DNA of 64,000 bases from an uncultured Flavobacteriaceae bacterium (GTDB lineage Bacteria > Bacteroidota > Bacteroidia > Flavobacteriales > Flavobacteriaceae), in the NCBI GenBank assembly GCA_905181825.1, contig CAJIZJ010000012.1, positions 1 through 64,000 on the forward strand, written 5' to 3'. Under the pieces are notes generated by a model, which was not told the origin of the DNA, ran no database searches, and saw nothing but the letters and a program-made list of their open reading frames with translations. The position numbers and the translations under genes are program-made. Shown in pieces: positions 11,290-20,304 of this stretch (within the stretch, counting starts at the first letter, position 1; each line of letters starts with the position of its first letter).

Positions 11290-14121
11290 ATGAGCAAGTT
11301 TGATGAATTTATAGAAGTAAAAGGAGCACGTGTACATAATCTAAAAGATATAGACGTAAAGATCCCCAGAGATAAGTTGGTAGTCATCACTGGAATGTCT
11401 GGAAGCGGAAAATCCTCCTTAGCATTTGATACTATTTATGCAGAAGGTCAGCGCCGCTATATTGAGACATTTTCAGCTTATGCACGTCAGTTTTTAGGGA
11501 GTTTAGAGCGTCCGGATGTCGATAAAATTGATGGGCTTTCTCCAGTAATTGCTATTGAACAAAAAACAACTAGCAAATCTCCAAGATCCACAGTCGGAAC
11601 AATTACCGAAATTTATGATTTCTTAAGATTGTTATATGCGCGTGCTGCAGATGCTTATAGCTATAACACCAGTGAAAAAATGGTGAGCTATAACGATCTT
11701 CAAATAAAAGATCTGATTCTTGAATCTTTTAACGGGAAACGCCTTTCAATATTATCTCCTGTAATTCGTTCTAGAAAAGGACACTACAGAGAATTATTCG
11801 AACAAATTGCTAAGCAAGGATTTGTAAAGGTCAGAACAGATGGTGTTATAGTTGACATTTCAAAAGGAATGAAGCTTGATCGCTATAAAATGCATGATAT
11901 CGAGATTGTTATTGACAGACTTAAAATTGATGAAACCAGCGCCTCTACAAGCAGACTAAACGAAAGTATTAATACAGCCATGTACCACGGAGAAAATGTA
12001 CTTATGGTAATTGAAGAAGAGAGTAAAGAAGTGCGCTATTTTAGTCGAAACTTAATGTGTCCAACTTCTGGAATATCCTACCCAAACCCAGAACCAAATA
12101 ATTTCTCATTTAATTCTCCAAAAGGCGCCTGTTTGGACTGTAGCGGTATTGGAACCTTATACAAGGTAAATGCGTATAAAATAATTCCTGACCCCTCTTT
12201 ATCTATTAAAAATGGAGGGCTAGCTCCACAAGGCACCCAAAAAGACTCTTGGATTTTTAAGCAATTAGAGCTCATTGCTCAACGCTATAACTTTAAACTA
12301 ACAGACCCCATTTCAAAAATATCAAAAGAAGCTTTAGATATTATATTATATGGCGGAAAAGATAAATTTTCAGTAGATAGTAAAACCTTAGGAGTCTCTA
12401 GAAACTATAATATAGATTTTGAGGGAATTGCTAATTTCATCGAAAGTCAGTATAAGAATTCAGACTCTACTTCAATTAAACGATGGGCAAAAGCATACAT
12501 GGATAAAATTAAATGTCCTAGCTGTAAAGGCTCTCGATTAAAAAAAGAATCCTTATTCTTTAAAATTAACGACAAGAATATTTCAGAACTTTCTGATATG
12601 GATATTGTAGATCTTGTGGAATGGTTTAAGAAACTCCCTAAGTATTTATCTAAAAGCCAGACTATAATTTCAAAAGAAATACTAAAAGAAATTTCTACGC
12701 GATTACAATTTCTTTTAGACGTTGGGCTTGATTATTTGTCTATAAGTAGAAGCTCAAAGTCACTTTCGGGTGGAGAAGCGCAGCGCATACGTTTAGCCAC
12801 ACAAATTGGTTCTCAGTTGGTGGGTGTATTGTATATCCTAGATGAACCAAGTATAGGCTTACACCAAAGAGATAATGAAAAACTAATAAAATCTCTAATA
12901 GCATTGAGAGATGTTGGTAACTCTGTAATTGTTGTAGAACATGACAAAGATATGATTGAACAAGCAGATCATGTAATTGATATTGGCCCTATGGCTGGAA
13001 AACATGGAGGTGAGATTATCAGTCAAGGAACCCCAAAAGATATATTAAATAGTGGTACCATGACTGCAGACTATTTGAGTGGAATTAGAGAAATTGAAGT
13101 CCCAAAAAATCGAAGAACTGGAAACGGGAAGTTCTTAGAGCTAAAAGGATGTACAGGAAATAATTTAAAAAATGTTTCTATAAAACTTCCATTGGCACAA
13201 ATGATTGGAGTCACCGGAGTTTCAGGAAGTGGGAAATCTACTTTAATAAATGAAACACTGTATCCAATCCTAAACAACTATTATTTTCATGGGGTCATGG
13301 AGCCAATGCCTTATAAATCAATTAAAGGGTTAGACAACTTAGACAAGGTTATTGACATCAACCAATCCCCAATTGGACGTACCCCGAGAAGTAATCCAGC
13401 AACTTACACCGGAGTTTTTGGGGAAATAAGAGCTTTATATGCTAAAATACCTGAAGCAATGATACGGGGCTATAAATTAGGTCGGTTTAGTTTTAATGTA
13501 GTTGGTGGGCGTTGTGAAACCTGTAGAGGGGGCGGTATGAGAGTGATAGAAATGAACTTCCTTCCTGATGTGTATGTGGAATGCGAGACCTGTCAAGGAA
13601 AACGCTTTAATAGAGAAACTCTTGAAATTCGTTACAAAGGAAAATCTATTAGTGATGTTCTAAACATGACGATTGAAGAATCCGTTGATTTCTTTGAGCA
13701 TATTCCTAAAATTTACAGAAAATTAAAAACCATAAAAGAAGTTGGATTAGGCTATATTACTTTGGGGCAGCAAAGCACCACTTTATCAGGTGGAGAAGCA
13801 CAACGGATCAAATTAGCTTCAGAGCTAAGTAAGCGTGATACTGGAAATACCATATATATTTTGGATGAGCCAACAACTGGACTTCATTTTGAAGACATTA
13901 GGGTTTTAATGGATGTATTAAATAAGTTAGTTGATAAGGGAAATACTGTGCTTATAATTGAACATAACCTAGATGTAATTAAAACAGTTGATTACATCTT
14001 AGATATAGGTCCTGAAGGAGGGAATGGAGGTGGCAAGGTAATTGCACAAGGAACTCCAGAAGTAATAATAAAAAACAAGTTAAGCCATACAGCACGGTTT
14101 TTAAAAAAAGAACTAACTTAG
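11290..14121 (+). CDS. uvrA: Excinuclease ABC subunit A
   Basis: Two ABC ATPase halves (GMSGSGKSSLAFDT; GVSGSGKSTLINE), SLSGGEAQRIRLATQIGS, CxxC zinc motifs. Confidence 0.97.
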   Translation: MSKFDEFIEVKGARVHNLKDIDVKIPRDKLVVITGMSGSGKSSLAFDTIYAEGQRRYIETFSAYARQFLGSLERPDVDKIDGLSPVIAIEQKTTSKSPRSTVGTITEIYDFLRLLYARAADAYSYNTSEKMVSYNDLQIKDLILESFNGKRLSILSPVIRSRKGHYRELFEQIAKQGFVKVRTDGVIVDISKGMKLDRYKMHDIEIVIDRLKIDETSASTSRLNESINTAMYHGENVLMVIEEESKEVRYFSRNLMCPTSGISYPNPEPNNFSFNSPKGACLDCSGIGTLYKVNAYKIIPDPSLSIKNGGLAPQGTQKDSWIFKQLELIAQRYNFKLTDPISKISKEALDIILYGGKDKFSVDSKTLGVSRNYNIDFEGIANFIESQYKNSDSTSIKRWAKAYMDKIKCPSCKGSRLKKESLFFKINDKNISELSDMDIVDLVEWFKKLPKYLSKSQTIISKEILKEISTRLQFLLDVGLDYLSISRSSKSLSGGEAQRIRLATQIGSQLVGVLYILDEPSIGLHQRDNEKLIKSLIALRDVGNSVIVVEHDKDMIEQADHVIDIGPMAGKHGGEIISQGTPKDILNSGTMTADYLSGIREIEVPKNRRTGNGKFLELKGCTGNNLKNVSIKLPLAQMIGVTGVSGSGKSTLINETLYPILNNYYFHGVMEPMPYKSIKGLDNLDKVIDINQSPIGRTPRSNPATYTGVFGEIRALYAKIPEAMIRGYKLGRFSFNVVGGRCETCRGGGMRVIEMNFLPDVYVECETCQGKRFNRETLEIRYKGKSISDVLNMTIEESVDFFEHIPKIYRKLKTIKEVGLGYITLGQQSTTLSGGEAQRIKLASELSKRDTGNTIYILDEPTTGLHFEDIRVLMDVLNKLVDKGNTVLIIEHNLDVIKTVDYILDIGPEGGNGGGKVIAQGTPEVIIKNKLSHTARFLKKELT

Positions 14122-14142: not shown

Positions 14143-14832
14143 ATGGGACCAGAAAAGAAACACAAAGGGTGGAATGAGATAAAAACGAATGATTCTTGGG
14201 CGATTTTCAAAATCATGGGAGAGTTTGTGAATGGATTTGAGAAAATGAGTAAAATTGGACCATGTGTCTCTATTTTTGGATCTGCAAGGACCAAACCAGA
14301 AGATGATTATTACAAACTATCTACTGAAGTTGCGACGTCCATTGTAAAAGCTGGATACGGCGTTATTACAGGGGGTGGACCCGGAATAATGGAAGCAGGA
14401 AATAAAGGGGCTCATTTGGCTGGTGGAACTTCCGTAGGATTGAATATTGAATTGCCTTTTGAACAGCACAACAATCCGTACATTGATTCCGATAAGAGTT
14501 TAGATTTTGATTATTTCTTTGTTAGAAAAGTGATGTTTTTAAAATACTCTCAAGGAATTGTTGTAATGCCTGGTGGTTTTGGAACCTTAGACGAACTGTT
14601 TGAAGCGATTACATTAATACAAACTCACAAAATTGAAAAATTCCCTGTTATATTGGTTGGGAAAACATTTTGGAGTGGTTTAATGGAATGGATAAAATCT
14701 ACCTTGTTAGAGCGATTTGAAACAATAAGTGCTAAAGATCTAGACCTAATTCATTTGGTAGATTCATCTGATGAAGTAATCGAAATACTAGACACTTTCT
14801 ATAAAGAATACCAATTGAGCCCTAATTTTTAA
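14143..14832 (+). CDS. LOG family / TIGR00730 Rossmann-fold protein
   Basis: FGSARTKPED, VITGGGPGIMEAGNKGA, VVMPGGFGTLDELFE (PGGxGTxxE). Confidence 0.92.
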   Translation: MGPEKKHKGWNEIKTNDSWAIFKIMGEFVNGFEKMSKIGPCVSIFGSARTKPEDDYYKLSTEVATSIVKAGYGVITGGGPGIMEAGNKGAHLAGGTSVGLNIELPFEQHNNPYIDSDKSLDFDYFFVRKVMFLKYSQGIVVMPGGFGTLDELFEAITLIQTHKIEKFPVILVGKTFWSGLMEWIKSTLLERFETISAKDLDLIHLVDSSDEVIEILDTFYKEYQLSPNF

Positions 14833-14894: not shown

Positions 14895-17729
14895 TTGTTG
14901 AAAAAACTCTCCTTAAATCTTATGATTATATTTTGTTTTATGACTGTCAGCAGTCAAAATGAAATACAAATTCAGGGATTCTTAAATATAGAAAGTAATA
15001 CGATCTTAATTAAACAAAAGATAACGTATTATAATAATTCTAACTCCTCATTAAGTCAATTATACTTTAATGATTGGGGGTCTAGTTTTAGCAACCCAGA
15101 TTCCCCACTTTCTAAAAGATTTGTTGAAGAGTATGATGGGTCTTTACTAAATCCTAGAAAAAAAAATAGAGGCTTTACAACAATTCATTCTGTAGAAAAT
15201 GAGAAACAAAAAGCCCTATCCTATTCTTACATTGAAAATCAATGTGATTTATTTAAAATTGAGCTTACAACTGATTTATTACCTTTTACATCTACTACCA
15301 TTTTTATTGAATACACGCTACAAATTCAAAGCGATCGATTTACTAAGTACGGAGTTACAAAAAAGGGAGACTATTTTTTAAATTACTGGTATATAACCCC
15401 AGCTGTTTTTGAGGATTCTGAATGGAAACTATTTAGCAATAAAAATCTTGATGATTATTACACCCCTAAATCTAAGTTGAAGCTAACCCTAGAAATCCCA
15501 CATAATTACAGTGCTTCTTCCGAGTTAAATTTAAATAATGTTGTTAATAAATCAAACACACATGTATTTACGTTTGAAGGAAGTGATAGAGTAGATACTA
15601 GACTTAATATTTCCACAGCTCCTTTTTTTAAATTTAAAATTGGGGACTTAAATATAATAAGTAATAATATAGATGCAGATGAATCATTAAATCAGCAAAT
15701 TAATTCATTTAAAAAAATAGTAGGTTTTTTAAATGACCGACTAGGTGTTTATCCACATGAAAACTTAATGATTTCGAAAGTGGATTTAAAAAAACATCCT
15801 ATATATGGTTTAAATTTACTTCCAGGTTTTCTTAGTCCATTTTCAAAAGAGTTTGAATATGAGTTAACCGTCGCCAAAAACTTAATTAGACTTTACTTAG
15901 ACCAGTATTTAAGAATGAATCCCAGAGAGGACTATTGGCTTAAATCAGGACTTGAAACAGTGTTATTAATGGATTTTGTTGATGTCTTTTACAAGGACCA
16001 GATGATGCTTGGGAAGCTTGCTAATATGTGGGGGATAAAGACTTATAATTTAGCAAAGTTAAAATATAATGAACAATACCAACTAACCTACTTATACATG
16101 GTTAGGACAGGAAGAGACCAAGCCTTAAACTTACACAAAGATGAATTATTAAAATTCAATGCTAACTTATCAACTAAATATAAAGCTGCTAAAGGATTGA
16201 TTTTCCTAGAAGATTTTATGGAAGGTTCGAGAATTGAAGATTGGATAAAAGAATTTGTAGTTGAAACTAAAAATGAATTCAAAACAACTAATGATTTTGA
16301 ATCGTACATTAAGACAAAAACTAATAAAGATCTCAGTTGGTTTTTTGAGTCATTTATAACAAATACGCAACAAATAGATTACAAAATAACAAAACTTAAA
16401 AGCACCAAAGATTCTGTTTATTTTACAATTAAAAACAACAAAAAGGGACAAACTCCTGTGTCATTATTCACACTTAAAAACGGCAAGGTACTCACAAAAA
16501 CATGGTTAACAGGAATCGGAAAAAAGAAAGATTTTGTAGTTGCTAATAATTTGGCGGATAAATATGTTTTAAACTATGATCAAAAAGTTCCAGAGTTTAA
16601 TGTGAAAAATAACTGGAAATCAGTCAAAGGAAGTGCATTGTTTAATAGACCTTTTAAGCTGAGGCTTATTAAGGATTATGTATCTCCCTATAATAACCAA
16701 CTTTACTTTTTGCCAACTCTTGAATATCGTAACATTTATGATGGTCTTAATTTGGGATTAAATATTAATAATAGTGGTATTTTGAAAAAACCATTTACTT
16801 TTGGAGTTGCCCCTAACTACAGTGTTAACTCTAAAACACTAACAGGATTTACTAAATTTGAATATAACACCTATTTTCAAGATCAAAATCTTTACAATAT
16901 TGAATTTGGCTTATTTATGTCACGCTCAAGTTTTGCTGAGGATTTATTTGTAAGAAGAACCCTACCTTACTTATCTTTTAATTTTAAAGATGCTACAAAC
17001 TTAAGATCAAATAAGTTTGAAAGTCTAAATTTGAGATATGTTGGTATAGACAAGGATTATGTAGAGACTTTTGGAAATGAAATGGCGCTCCCTTCCTACG
17101 GAGTATTCAATATAAGATATCTAAATTCTAACATAGGATATAAAAAACATTACAGCTGGTTTTTAGATACACAATTTTCAAATGAATTTGGTAAGGTAGC
17201 CTTTAACTATGAAATCAGAAAACGAACGAATAAAAATAGCTTTTATAATCTAAGGCTTTTTGCTGGTTCTTTTTTGTATTCAAAAATTGATACCAATCAA
17301 ACATACTTTGATTTTGCTTTAGATAGACCAACAGATTATTTGTTCGAATATAATTATCTTGGACAATTTGAATCATCAGGAATATTTAGTCAACAAATTA
17401 TAATTGCAGATGGTGGATTCAAATCCCGTCTAGAGACTTATTATGCTAACCAATGGATAACCACATTAAATGCCAGCGCTTCTATTTGGAAATACGTCCA
17501 AACCTACGGCGATGTTGGATTTATAAAAAACAAAGGCAAAGGCGCTGAATTTGTTTATGATTCAGGAATACGCCTAAATCTAATTACAAACTATTTTGAA
17601 ATTTTCTTTCCTGTTTACTCCAACTTAGGATGGGAAATAGCTGCTCCTGAGTACAGTCAAAAAATCAGATTTATATTTACAGCTGACCCAACAGCTCTTT
17701 TTGGCTTATTTAGAAGGGAATGGTATTGA
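14895..17729 (+). CDS. Exported M1-peptidase-like (zinc ligands apparently lost) protein with C-terminal outer-membrane beta-barrel-like domain
   Basis: N-terminal signal peptide (KKLSLNLMIIFCFMTVSSQ), M1-like N-domain and WLKSGLET region without HExxH, C-terminal alternating amphipathic strands ending ..FGLFRREWY; TTG start, alternative TTG at 14898. Confidence 0.75.
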   Translation: MLKKLSLNLMIIFCFMTVSSQNEIQIQGFLNIESNTILIKQKITYYNNSNSSLSQLYFNDWGSSFSNPDSPLSKRFVEEYDGSLLNPRKKNRGFTTIHSVENEKQKALSYSYIENQCDLFKIELTTDLLPFTSTTIFIEYTLQIQSDRFTKYGVTKKGDYFLNYWYITPAVFEDSEWKLFSNKNLDDYYTPKSKLKLTLEIPHNYSASSELNLNNVVNKSNTHVFTFEGSDRVDTRLNISTAPFFKFKIGDLNIISNNIDADESLNQQINSFKKIVGFLNDRLGVYPHENLMISKVDLKKHPIYGLNLLPGFLSPFSKEFEYELTVAKNLIRLYLDQYLRMNPREDYWLKSGLETVLLMDFVDVFYKDQMMLGKLANMWGIKTYNLAKLKYNEQYQLTYLYMVRTGRDQALNLHKDELLKFNANLSTKYKAAKGLIFLEDFMEGSRIEDWIKEFVVETKNEFKTTNDFESYIKTKTNKDLSWFFESFITNTQQIDYKITKLKSTKDSVYFTIKNNKKGQTPVSLFTLKNGKVLTKTWLTGIGKKKDFVVANNLADKYVLNYDQKVPEFNVKNNWKSVKGSALFNRPFKLRLIKDYVSPYNNQLYFLPTLEYRNIYDGLNLGLNINNSGILKKPFTFGVAPNYSVNSKTLTGFTKFEYNTYFQDQNLYNIEFGLFMSRSSFAEDLFVRRTLPYLSFNFKDATNLRSNKFESLNLRYVGIDKDYVETFGNEMALPSYGVFNIRYLNSNIGYKKHYSWFLDTQFSNEFGKVAFNYEIRKRTNKNSFYNLRLFAGSFLYSKIDTNQTYFDFALDRPTDYLFEYNYLGQFESSGIFSQQIIIADGGFKSRLETYYANQWITTLNASASIWKYVQTYGDVGFIKNKGKGAEFVYDSGIRLNLITNYFEIFFPVYSNLGWEIAAPEYSQKIRFIFTADPTALFGLFRREWY

Positions 17730-17892: not shown

Positions 17893-20304
17893 ATGCTTAT
17901 CAAAAACGACCCAACCAAAGATATAACTTTTGAAGACTTCAAAGCTGATGTCTTAAACGATTACAAGATTGCCTATACTAGTAGAGAATGTAGTCTTCTA
18001 GGTCGGCGTGAAGTATTGACTGGAAAAGCGAAGTTTGGGATTTTTGGAGATGGTAAAGAACTGCCTCAAATTGCTTGGGCAAAAGCATTTCATAAAGGAG
18101 ATTTCAGATCTGGTTATTACAGAGATCAAACCTTTATGATGGCCATCGGAAAACTAACTATAGAACAGTTTTTTGCGGGCTTGTACGCACATACTGATAT
18201 TGCTCATGACCCCATGAGTGCAGGTAGGCAAATGGGGGGTCATTTTACAACTCACTCATTAGACGAGAATTTTAACTGGAAAAACCTGACCGAACAATAT
18301 AATTCAAGTTCAGATATTTCTCCAACAGGAGCACAAATGCCTAGGCTGCTTGGTCTGGCGCAAGCTTCAAAAATATACCGTAAATTAGAGGGGTTCAACG
18401 CTAAAAAATTCTCAAAATCTGGAAATGAAGTTGCTTGGGGAACCATTGGAAATGCGAGTACTAGTGAAGGGGTTTTCTTTGAAACAATAAATGCGGCTGG
18501 AGTTCTACAAGTTCCCATGGTGATTAGTATTTGGGATGATGAATATGGGATTTCTGTACACGCAAAACATCAGACTACAAAAGAAAATATCTCAGAAATA
18601 TTAAAAGGGTTTCAAAGAGACTCTGATAGTGATGGCTACGAGATATTAAAGGTTCACGGATGGGATTATGTTGAACTAATTAATGCTTATCAAAAAGCAA
18701 GTGAAATTGCAAGAAATGAACATGTTCCAGTAATGATACATGTCAATGAATTAACTCAACCTCAAGGGCATTCAACTTCGGGGTCTCATGAAAGATATAA
18801 AACTCCCGAGAGATTAAAATGGGAACAATCTAATGATTGTAACACGAAATTTAGAGAATGGATTATATCCAATGAAGTCGCTACAGATGAAAATATTACA
18901 TCTATAGAACGTGACATAAAGAAACGTGTTAAGGAAGGAAAGATAAAAGCATGGAAAGATTTTTGTGCCCCTATTAAGTCCGAAAAACAAGAAGTTATTC
19001 AATTAATGAAGTCTGCTGCAGATACTTCTTCTCAAAGCGTTTTTATTCAAAAGATAATAAAACAACTGGAAAGTATCAATGAGCCCTTACGGAATGATAT
19101 TCTTAGTAGATCTCGTAATATATTAAAATATTTAATTCACGAAGATAGTTCTGCTAAAAGCCAGCTTATCAATTGGGTTAATTCTTATTTCAAAGAAATT
19201 CAACCTAAATACAGTACTTTATTGTACAGCGAATCAGAATCCAGAGCAACTAACATAGCGGAAGTACTTCCAGTATTTGACTCAAAGTCTAAACTTGTTG
19301 ATGGTCGAGTCATTTTAAGAGATAACTTCGATAAAATATTAAGTAATAAACCCGAAGTTTTAATTTTTGGTGAAGATACCGGAACTATTGGAGATGTCAA
19401 TCAAGGATTGGAAGGTCTTCAGGAAAAATTTGGAGAATCAAGAGTTTCTGATACAGGAATACGAGAAACTACTATAATTGGTCAAGGGATTGGTTTGGCT
19501 TTGCGAGGACTAAGACCTATCGCGGAAATTCAATATCTTGATTACATGGTATATGCACTTCAAATCATTAGTGATGATTTGTCAACACTGCATTATAGAA
19601 CTTTTGGAAAACAAAAAGCACCAATGATTATTAGAACTCGTGGGCACCGCTTAGAAGGTATTTGGCATTCCGGTTCACAATTAGGTGGTATATTAAACTT
19701 AATTAGAGGTGTTTATGTATTAGTACCTAGAAACATGACAAAAGCAGCTGGTTTTTATAATACACTGTTAGAAAGTGATCAGCCTGCAATGGTCGTAGAA
19801 TGCTTAAACGGCTACAGATTAAAAGAAAAAGAGCCTTCAAATTTAGGGGAATTTAGAACACCAGTTGGAATTGTAGAAACTATTAAGCAGGGAGCTGACC
19901 TAACAATTGTATCCTATGGCTCAACTCTTCGGATTATAGAAAAAGCAGCTAAAGAGTTGCAAGAAGTAGATATTGATGTTGAGATTATTGATATTCAATC
20001 TCTGATACCATTTGATCTTAATAAGGATATTTCTAAAAGTGTTGAGAAAACAAATAGACTTCTTATTATTGACGAAGATATTCCAGGTGCTGCTTCGGCT
20101 TATATACTAAATGAGATTCTACAAAATCAGAACGTATATGAACACTTAGATAGCAAACCACAACTATTAACCGCTAAAGAACACCGCCCTGCTTATGGGA
20201 GTGATGGAGACTACTTTAGTAAACCGTCATCAGAGGATGTTTTTGAAACTGTTTACAACATGTTTCATGAAGTGGACCCTACCTCCTATCCAAAATTAAG
20301 ATAA
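17893..20304 (+). CDS. Fused alpha/beta E1 subunit of branched-chain 2-oxoacid (or related) dehydrogenase
   Basis: E1-alpha-like N half (GNASTSEGVFFETINAAGVLQVPMV) and E1-beta-like C half (VLIFGEDTGTIGDVNQGLEGLQEKFGESRVSDTGIRE) in one 803-aa ORF. Confidence 0.88.
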   Translation: MLIKNDPTKDITFEDFKADVLNDYKIAYTSRECSLLGRREVLTGKAKFGIFGDGKELPQIAWAKAFHKGDFRSGYYRDQTFMMAIGKLTIEQFFAGLYAHTDIAHDPMSAGRQMGGHFTTHSLDENFNWKNLTEQYNSSSDISPTGAQMPRLLGLAQASKIYRKLEGFNAKKFSKSGNEVAWGTIGNASTSEGVFFETINAAGVLQVPMVISIWDDEYGISVHAKHQTTKENISEILKGFQRDSDSDGYEILKVHGWDYVELINAYQKASEIARNEHVPVMIHVNELTQPQGHSTSGSHERYKTPERLKWEQSNDCNTKFREWIISNEVATDENITSIERDIKKRVKEGKIKAWKDFCAPIKSEKQEVIQLMKSAADTSSQSVFIQKIIKQLESINEPLRNDILSRSRNILKYLIHEDSSAKSQLINWVNSYFKEIQPKYSTLLYSESESRATNIAEVLPVFDSKSKLVDGRVILRDNFDKILSNKPEVLIFGEDTGTIGDVNQGLEGLQEKFGESRVSDTGIRETTIIGQGIGLALRGLRPIAEIQYLDYMVYALQIISDDLSTLHYRTFGKQKAPMIIRTRGHRLEGIWHSGSQLGGILNLIRGVYVLVPRNMTKAAGFYNTLLESDQPAMVVECLNGYRLKEKEPSNLGEFRTPVGIVETIKQGADLTIVSYGSTLRIIEKAAKELQEVDIDVEIIDIQSLIPFDLNKDISKSVEKTNRLLIIDEDIPGAASAYILNEILQNQNVYEHLDSKPQLLTAKEHRPAYGSDGDYFSKPSSEDVFETVYNMFHEVDPTSYPKLR

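Follow-up and report, generated by a model that had tools for sequence, protein, structure and literature searches.

The question raised by this locus is what a peptidase-like protein that seemed to have lost its zinc ligands, and that continues into an outer-membrane barrel, is doing in a bacterium. The locus lies in a 64,000-nucleotide stretch of DNA (the window; GenBank GCA_905181825.1, contig CAJIZJ010000012.1) from the draft genome (1.66 Mb, 76.65% complete) of an uncultured Flavobacteriaceae bacterium, and is an open frame on the forward strand (14895..17729) encoding a protein of 944 aa. The start codon is TTG at 14895; a second TTG follows directly (14895-14900), and the true start may be one codon on, at 14898. 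The gene order, all on the forward strand, is uvrA (11290..14121), a TIGR00730/LOG-like gene (14143..14832; named from reading its sequence), the pseudo-M1-barrel gene and a 2-oxoacid dehydrogenase E1-like gene (17893..20304); uvrA is a conserved neighbour in gene-order comparison, and the other two are the usual upstream and downstream neighbours in Flavobacteriaceae. A contig scan returned only one close relative (71% identity), from a Flavobacteriaceae bacterium with the same gene order, and no copy was found on plasmids. No Pfam or NCBIfam model matched the 944-aa protein, and neither a PHROGs scan nor PDB sequence searches, made with the protein and with its profile, yielded anything of use. 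The signal peptide of the original prediction was recovered as a Sec signal at residues 1-20 (14895..14954; LKKLSLNLMIIFCFMTVSS|Q; helix 2-18 in the model), followed by the near-invariant mature N-terminus Q21, which is kept in at least 95% of 45 orthologues. In Bacteroidetes, Gln is expected directly after the signal peptide (the Q-rule), and Q21 fits this expectation.

The N-terminal half had been read as M1-like, and structure prediction bore this out: when the AlphaFold2 (AF2) model of the full protein (built from 18 orthologues; pLDDT 71.8) was compared with the PDB using Foldseek, the best 50 matches were all M1 aminopeptidases, among them IRAP (4pj6; E 2.3e-18), ERAP1/2 and tricorn factor F3. 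Using the model and Foldseek, together with hhalign to intact family members, we delimited an M1 N-terminal beta domain (residues 21-255; 14955..15659), which is followed by a catalytic-fold domain devoid of zinc ligands (residues 256-490; 15660..16364; also supported by alignment) and, from DSSP of the model, by the beta-sandwich of domain III (residues 491-574; 16365..16616). At the level of BLAST, residues ~395-600 also match other M1 peptidases from the same genomes (lowest E, 5e-12). Neither the helical domain IV of M1 enzymes nor a POTRA domain follows in the model, and domain III joins the barrel directly.

We then read the ligand columns from an alignment of 53 Flavobacteriaceae copies with 50 intact homologues, which runs without gaps over the ligand site between the anchors F320, E323, L339, N342, R344 and W348. 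K328 occupies the column of the first His, N329 that of the catalytic Glu, R332 that of the second His and S351 that of the distal Glu, so that every ligand of the HExxH(x18)E zinc site and the catalytic Glu are gone, as had been claimed for both His residues and the distal Glu. The Lys at position 328 is shared by 51 of the 53 Flavobacteriaceae copies. The exopeptidase motif GxMEN is likewise absent, with YGLNLLP (aligned as YGLN-LP) in place of the GGMEYP of intact relatives, while P310, R344 and W348 are retained and R344 is invariant in both dead and intact groups. Taking model and alignment together, we regard it as highly probable that the 944-aa protein is an M1 pseudopeptidase joined to an outer-membrane barrel.

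The barrel, which the original prediction had placed in the C-terminal ~380 aa, was predicted with confidence (residues 575-944; 16617..17726; barrel-only AF2 model from 62 sequences, pLDDT 89.5) and begins at about residue 585-600, with 15 clear strands and a short terminal sixteenth. Foldseek of the barrel model against the PDB returned Omp85-superfamily proteins (Sam50, TamA, BamA, FhaC) as all of the best 50 matches, with a best E of 1.3e-6 and a moderate query-normalised TM of 0.36-0.52. Members of this superfamily share a long loop L6, a (V/I)RG(Y/F) motif at the L6 tip and (F/G)xDxG on strand 13 (PMC4490367). In the model, an ordered loop of 57 residues connects strands 11 and 12 at the L6 position (residues 797-853; model residues 223-279; 17283..17453), and YGDVG (residues 871-875; 17505..17519) falls on strand 13 at the position of the (F/G)xDxG motif; the Asp of this [YF]xDxG is found in 65 of 66 dead members, and its first residue is more often Y than F. 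The (V/I)RG(Y/F) motif is absent from the L6 tip of the window's protein; conserved in this region are DY (814-815), Q834 and GGFK (840-843; 17412..17423), the Lys of the latter being present in 65/66 dead and 39/50 active members. It is possible that GGFK replaces (V/I)RG(Y/F). The POTRA domains typical of Omp85 proteins are missing from the window's protein. Barrel-only hhalign against BamA and TamL gave probabilities of just 0.4-2.6%, but this comparison is insensitive, as BamA against TamL, the positive control, reached only 43%; for this reason the Omp85 assignment rests on structure, on motif position and on a second protein family described below. As modelled, the barrel is Omp85-like by its fold, its loop and one motif, and does not have all Omp85 features.

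Homologues of full length (~950-1060 aa, spanning M1 and barrel) occur across the class Bacteroidia, and beyond Flavobacteriaceae and allied families most of them retain HE[VIL]GHNWFYG and W[ML]DEG with the distal Glu; the motifs GGMEYP and HEVGHNWFYG are typical of these intact relatives, one of which scores against Pfam Peptidase_M1 with E 7.3e-18. Dead and intact forms align by hhalign over 932 columns that include both M1 and barrel (E 6e-134). Judged by this full-length sequence homology, the protein is a member of an M1-barrel family of Bacteroidia, which we call type A. A second M1-barrel family came from a search with PF01103 (Omp85), which matched a 1067-aa ORF that also has an M1 domain (L209, genome G275; E 1.5e-8) and whose relatives (44-63% identity) are common in Bacteroidia. 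HE[IV][GAS]H is present in its members, almost all of which also show FxDxG and an LRGY-type L6; hmmscan of this family did not list Omp85 despite the PF01103 match of the genome search. Intact type A members match the second family with E 3e-92 from the M1 domain into the first barrel strands, and NxYDG is common to both, and these sequence similarities support an M1-Omp85 architecture. The second, catalytically intact family (L209, L211, L213, L214-L243; ~1070-1140 aa) is found in other Bacteroidia genomes, and we found no paper describing it. Two further proteins were observed. One is a 1087-aa protein (L210, G276:C29) with WD40-like (PD40) repeats, a barrel region matched by PF01103 and an N-terminal part that resembles a peptidase-type domain without HExxH; the other is a metallophosphoesterase-Omp85 fusion (L212, G272:C1) of a kind listed by Heinz and Lithgow.

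In a tree built without the active-site columns, the dead sequences made up one side of a branch, apart from one stray (L135). Rooting on the second M1-barrel family made the intact members paraphyletic and the dead members a single clade (SH-aLRT 97), with the intact L111 as its sister (99); within it, the clade of Flavobacteriaceae with families f4, f6 and f12 had a support of 100, and long branches among the dead sequences call for caution in reading the deepest part of the dead clade (family f8). Immediately downstream of the intact L111 gene comes the E1 gene that also follows the dead gene in Flavobacteriaceae, and the E1-like gene has this position next to the intact homologue in L176 as well. 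Since the sister of the dead clade is intact and has the same chromosomal location, the most likely history is a single loss of catalysis, in situ. The stray L135 (G582, family f43), from another Bacteroidia family, has lost the HExxH ligands separately and apparently independently (TMRMVANSWFSG...WLNEG). In three f8 genomes an intact M1-barrel copy is accompanied by a second one (L122, L123 and L127, with G436:C1, G359:C158 and G427:C4), and the related f8 copies L113-L116 and L128 are dead. One dead copy binned in f15 (L107; G318:C33) groups inside Flavobacteriaceae, and its short contig (7.1 kb) may be misbinned.

A gene whose zinc ligands are missing could be a decaying pseudogene or an assembly error, and the original prediction had held that intact orthologues would mean just that. 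Intact homologues do exist in other families, yet the ligand loss is fixed in all 53 aligned Flavobacteriaceae homologues and the gene is under purifying selection, so this reading fails. The gene is present in 244 of the 251 Flavobacteriaceae genomes surveyed (E no worse than ~1e-55; of the remaining seven, six gave only weak matches and one gave none), genomes as small as 1.2-1.7 Mb retain it, and DNA for the active motif of the relatives was found in none of the 251. At the genus level it is found in 19/19 genomes, in 16 of them, besides the window's, as a single full-length open frame, and single-contig genomes show the same ligand-less state. In ten genus pairs (NG86), dN/dS was 0.022-0.124 in the pseudo-active-site strip (residues 302-352; 15798..15950), similar to the barrel (0.036-0.128), and 0.080-0.151 in the whole catalytic domain, with the strip lower in 9 of the 10 pairs; all of these values are far below 1. 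The pseudo-site is thus under strong purifying selection, and the gene is near-universal in Flavobacteriaceae. The open genus copies and the dN/dS rule out sequence error or decay, to which we give practically no credence.

Comparison of the two groups revealed a change in where constraint lies. The ratio of catalytic-domain to barrel identity is 1.82 in active members and 0.87 in the dead members of Flavobacteriaceae, and the difference persists once pairs of similar barrel divergence are compared: among pairs whose barrels share 40-50% identity, catalytic-domain identity is 58% for intact and 38% for dead members. The most constrained parts of the dead members are the barrel, the L6-like loop and strand 13, and the pseudo-site strip is the best-conserved part of their catalytic domain. 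The target of selection has moved from the peptidase towards the barrel.

The original prediction had described the protein as tethered at the cell surface. In the Omp85 superfamily, N-terminal domains are periplasmic. In PlpD, the best-studied enzyme-Omp85 fusion, the enzyme domain stays in the periplasm (PMC11116518). Since the M1 domain takes the position usual for POTRA domains, it should by analogy face the periplasm and not the surface, which speaks against the tethering claim. We think it reasonably probable, as a whole, that the window's protein belongs to the catalytically dead branch of a Bacteroidia family in which an M1 peptidase is fused to an Omp85-like barrel. The protein would be exported by Sec and inserted as an Omp85-like barrel of ~16 strands, with the M1 fold replacing POTRA domains on the periplasmic side. 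The active site would have been lost once, in situ, in an ancestor of Flavobacteriaceae and some allied families, after which the gene would have become near-universal and single-copy in Flavobacteriaceae. The dead M1 domain may then serve as a non-catalytic module whose old substrate cleft binds unfolded chains, N-termini or partners, and which feeds, gates or positions clients at the barrel, so that the whole protein would be an accessory factor in outer-membrane assembly or translocation. For the client-binding or gating role itself we put the likelihood at somewhat under even. A precedent for binding in the peptide pocket is Tma108, an M1 protein that holds nascent chains there (PMC11266112). 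More tentatively, the protein could be an unrecognised Omp85-type insertase or translocase in which a dead peptidase fold has replaced POTRA as client-binding or gating module.

Pseudopeptidases often serve as scaffolds (PMC11266112), and the barrel could accordingly be a mere anchor or passive pore, with the dead M1 domain acting in the periplasm as a plug or a scaffold for partners such as a lipoprotein or a peptidoglycan-linked protein, and handling no clients; we consider this unlikely, if the most serious of the competing explanations, as the barrel, the L6-like loop and strand 13 are constrained beyond the needs of a mere anchor. The receptor option of the original prediction, a surface-exposed pseudopeptidase that binds peptides or polymers, draws on a barrel that is real and on the many surface proteins displayed by Bacteroidota, but an M1 domain that precedes an Omp85-like barrel is expected in the periplasm, where PlpD has its enzyme domain (PMC11116518), and the sequence of the 944-aa protein has no lipoprotein Cys after the signal-peptide cleavage site; we find this reading improbable, whereas the assembly factor that had been named beside it is now favoured by the evidence. 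Equally improbable, in our estimation, is that zinc-independent or other catalysis has evolved in the old cleft around K328, R332, R344 and their neighbours. The strip does top conservation within the catalytic domain of dead members, and K328 replaces His in nearly all Flavobacteriaceae copies, but there is no recognisable new catalytic set, and several other families have dead homologues that do not retain K328.

Returning to the favoured reading of a dead M1-Omp85-like fusion, one of its closest known counterparts is PlpD (patatin-Omp85), another outer-membrane protein in which an enzyme fold precedes an Omp85 barrel (PMC11116518); the window's protein differs in having an M1 instead of a patatin fold, in that the enzyme is dead, in that no POTRA is seen between the domains and in belonging to Bacteroidota. 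Some Omp85 subfamilies, such as the metallophosphoesterase type (PF00149), likewise carry N-terminal domains other than POTRA on an Omp85 barrel (PMC4104836). Heinz and Lithgow (2014) surveyed ten Omp85 subfamilies, with no M1 subfamily among them and the word 'peptidase' absent from the text (PMC4104836). We found no description of an M1-Omp85 fusion in open-licence papers, and one may exist elsewhere. With MEROPS M1 enzymes (IRAP, ERAP1, LTA4H, tricorn factor F3) the protein shares the fold of domains I-III, but it is without the zinc ligands and catalytic Glu and has a barrel in place of helical domain IV. The eukaryotic M1 pseudo-aminopeptidase TAF2 also has an M1 fold and a probably non-catalytic role, but is not a membrane protein. 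Nor is Tma108, another eukaryotic one with an M1 fold and probably a non-catalytic role, in which all active-site residues but one are kept (PMC11266112). TamL/TamA and BamA of Flavobacterium johnsoniae are Omp85 barrels of the same bacteria but carry POTRA domains, and the papers on them do not list the window's protein among BAM or TAM subunits (PMC12045153, PMC12611786). A place in the BAM complex was suspected, both being outer-membrane proteins of Bacteroidota, and was rejected: the subunits named for F. johnsoniae and B. thetaiotaomicron (PMC12611786, PMC12578637) are different proteins.

These observations extend the few known enzyme-Omp85 fusions by a peptidase fold, and they trace how an active enzyme turned into a dead but conserved domain within an outer-membrane protein that nearly all members of a large bacterial family carry. 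This suggests that the dead enzyme, rather than decaying, came to function as part of the barrel. Because active and dead versions share a chromosomal position, they would permit a direct test of the former against the remaining role of the peptidase. Should the barrel work in the manner of other Omp85 proteins, outer-membrane assembly or translocation in Flavobacteriaceae would involve one more factor, which the BAM and TAM studies have not named.
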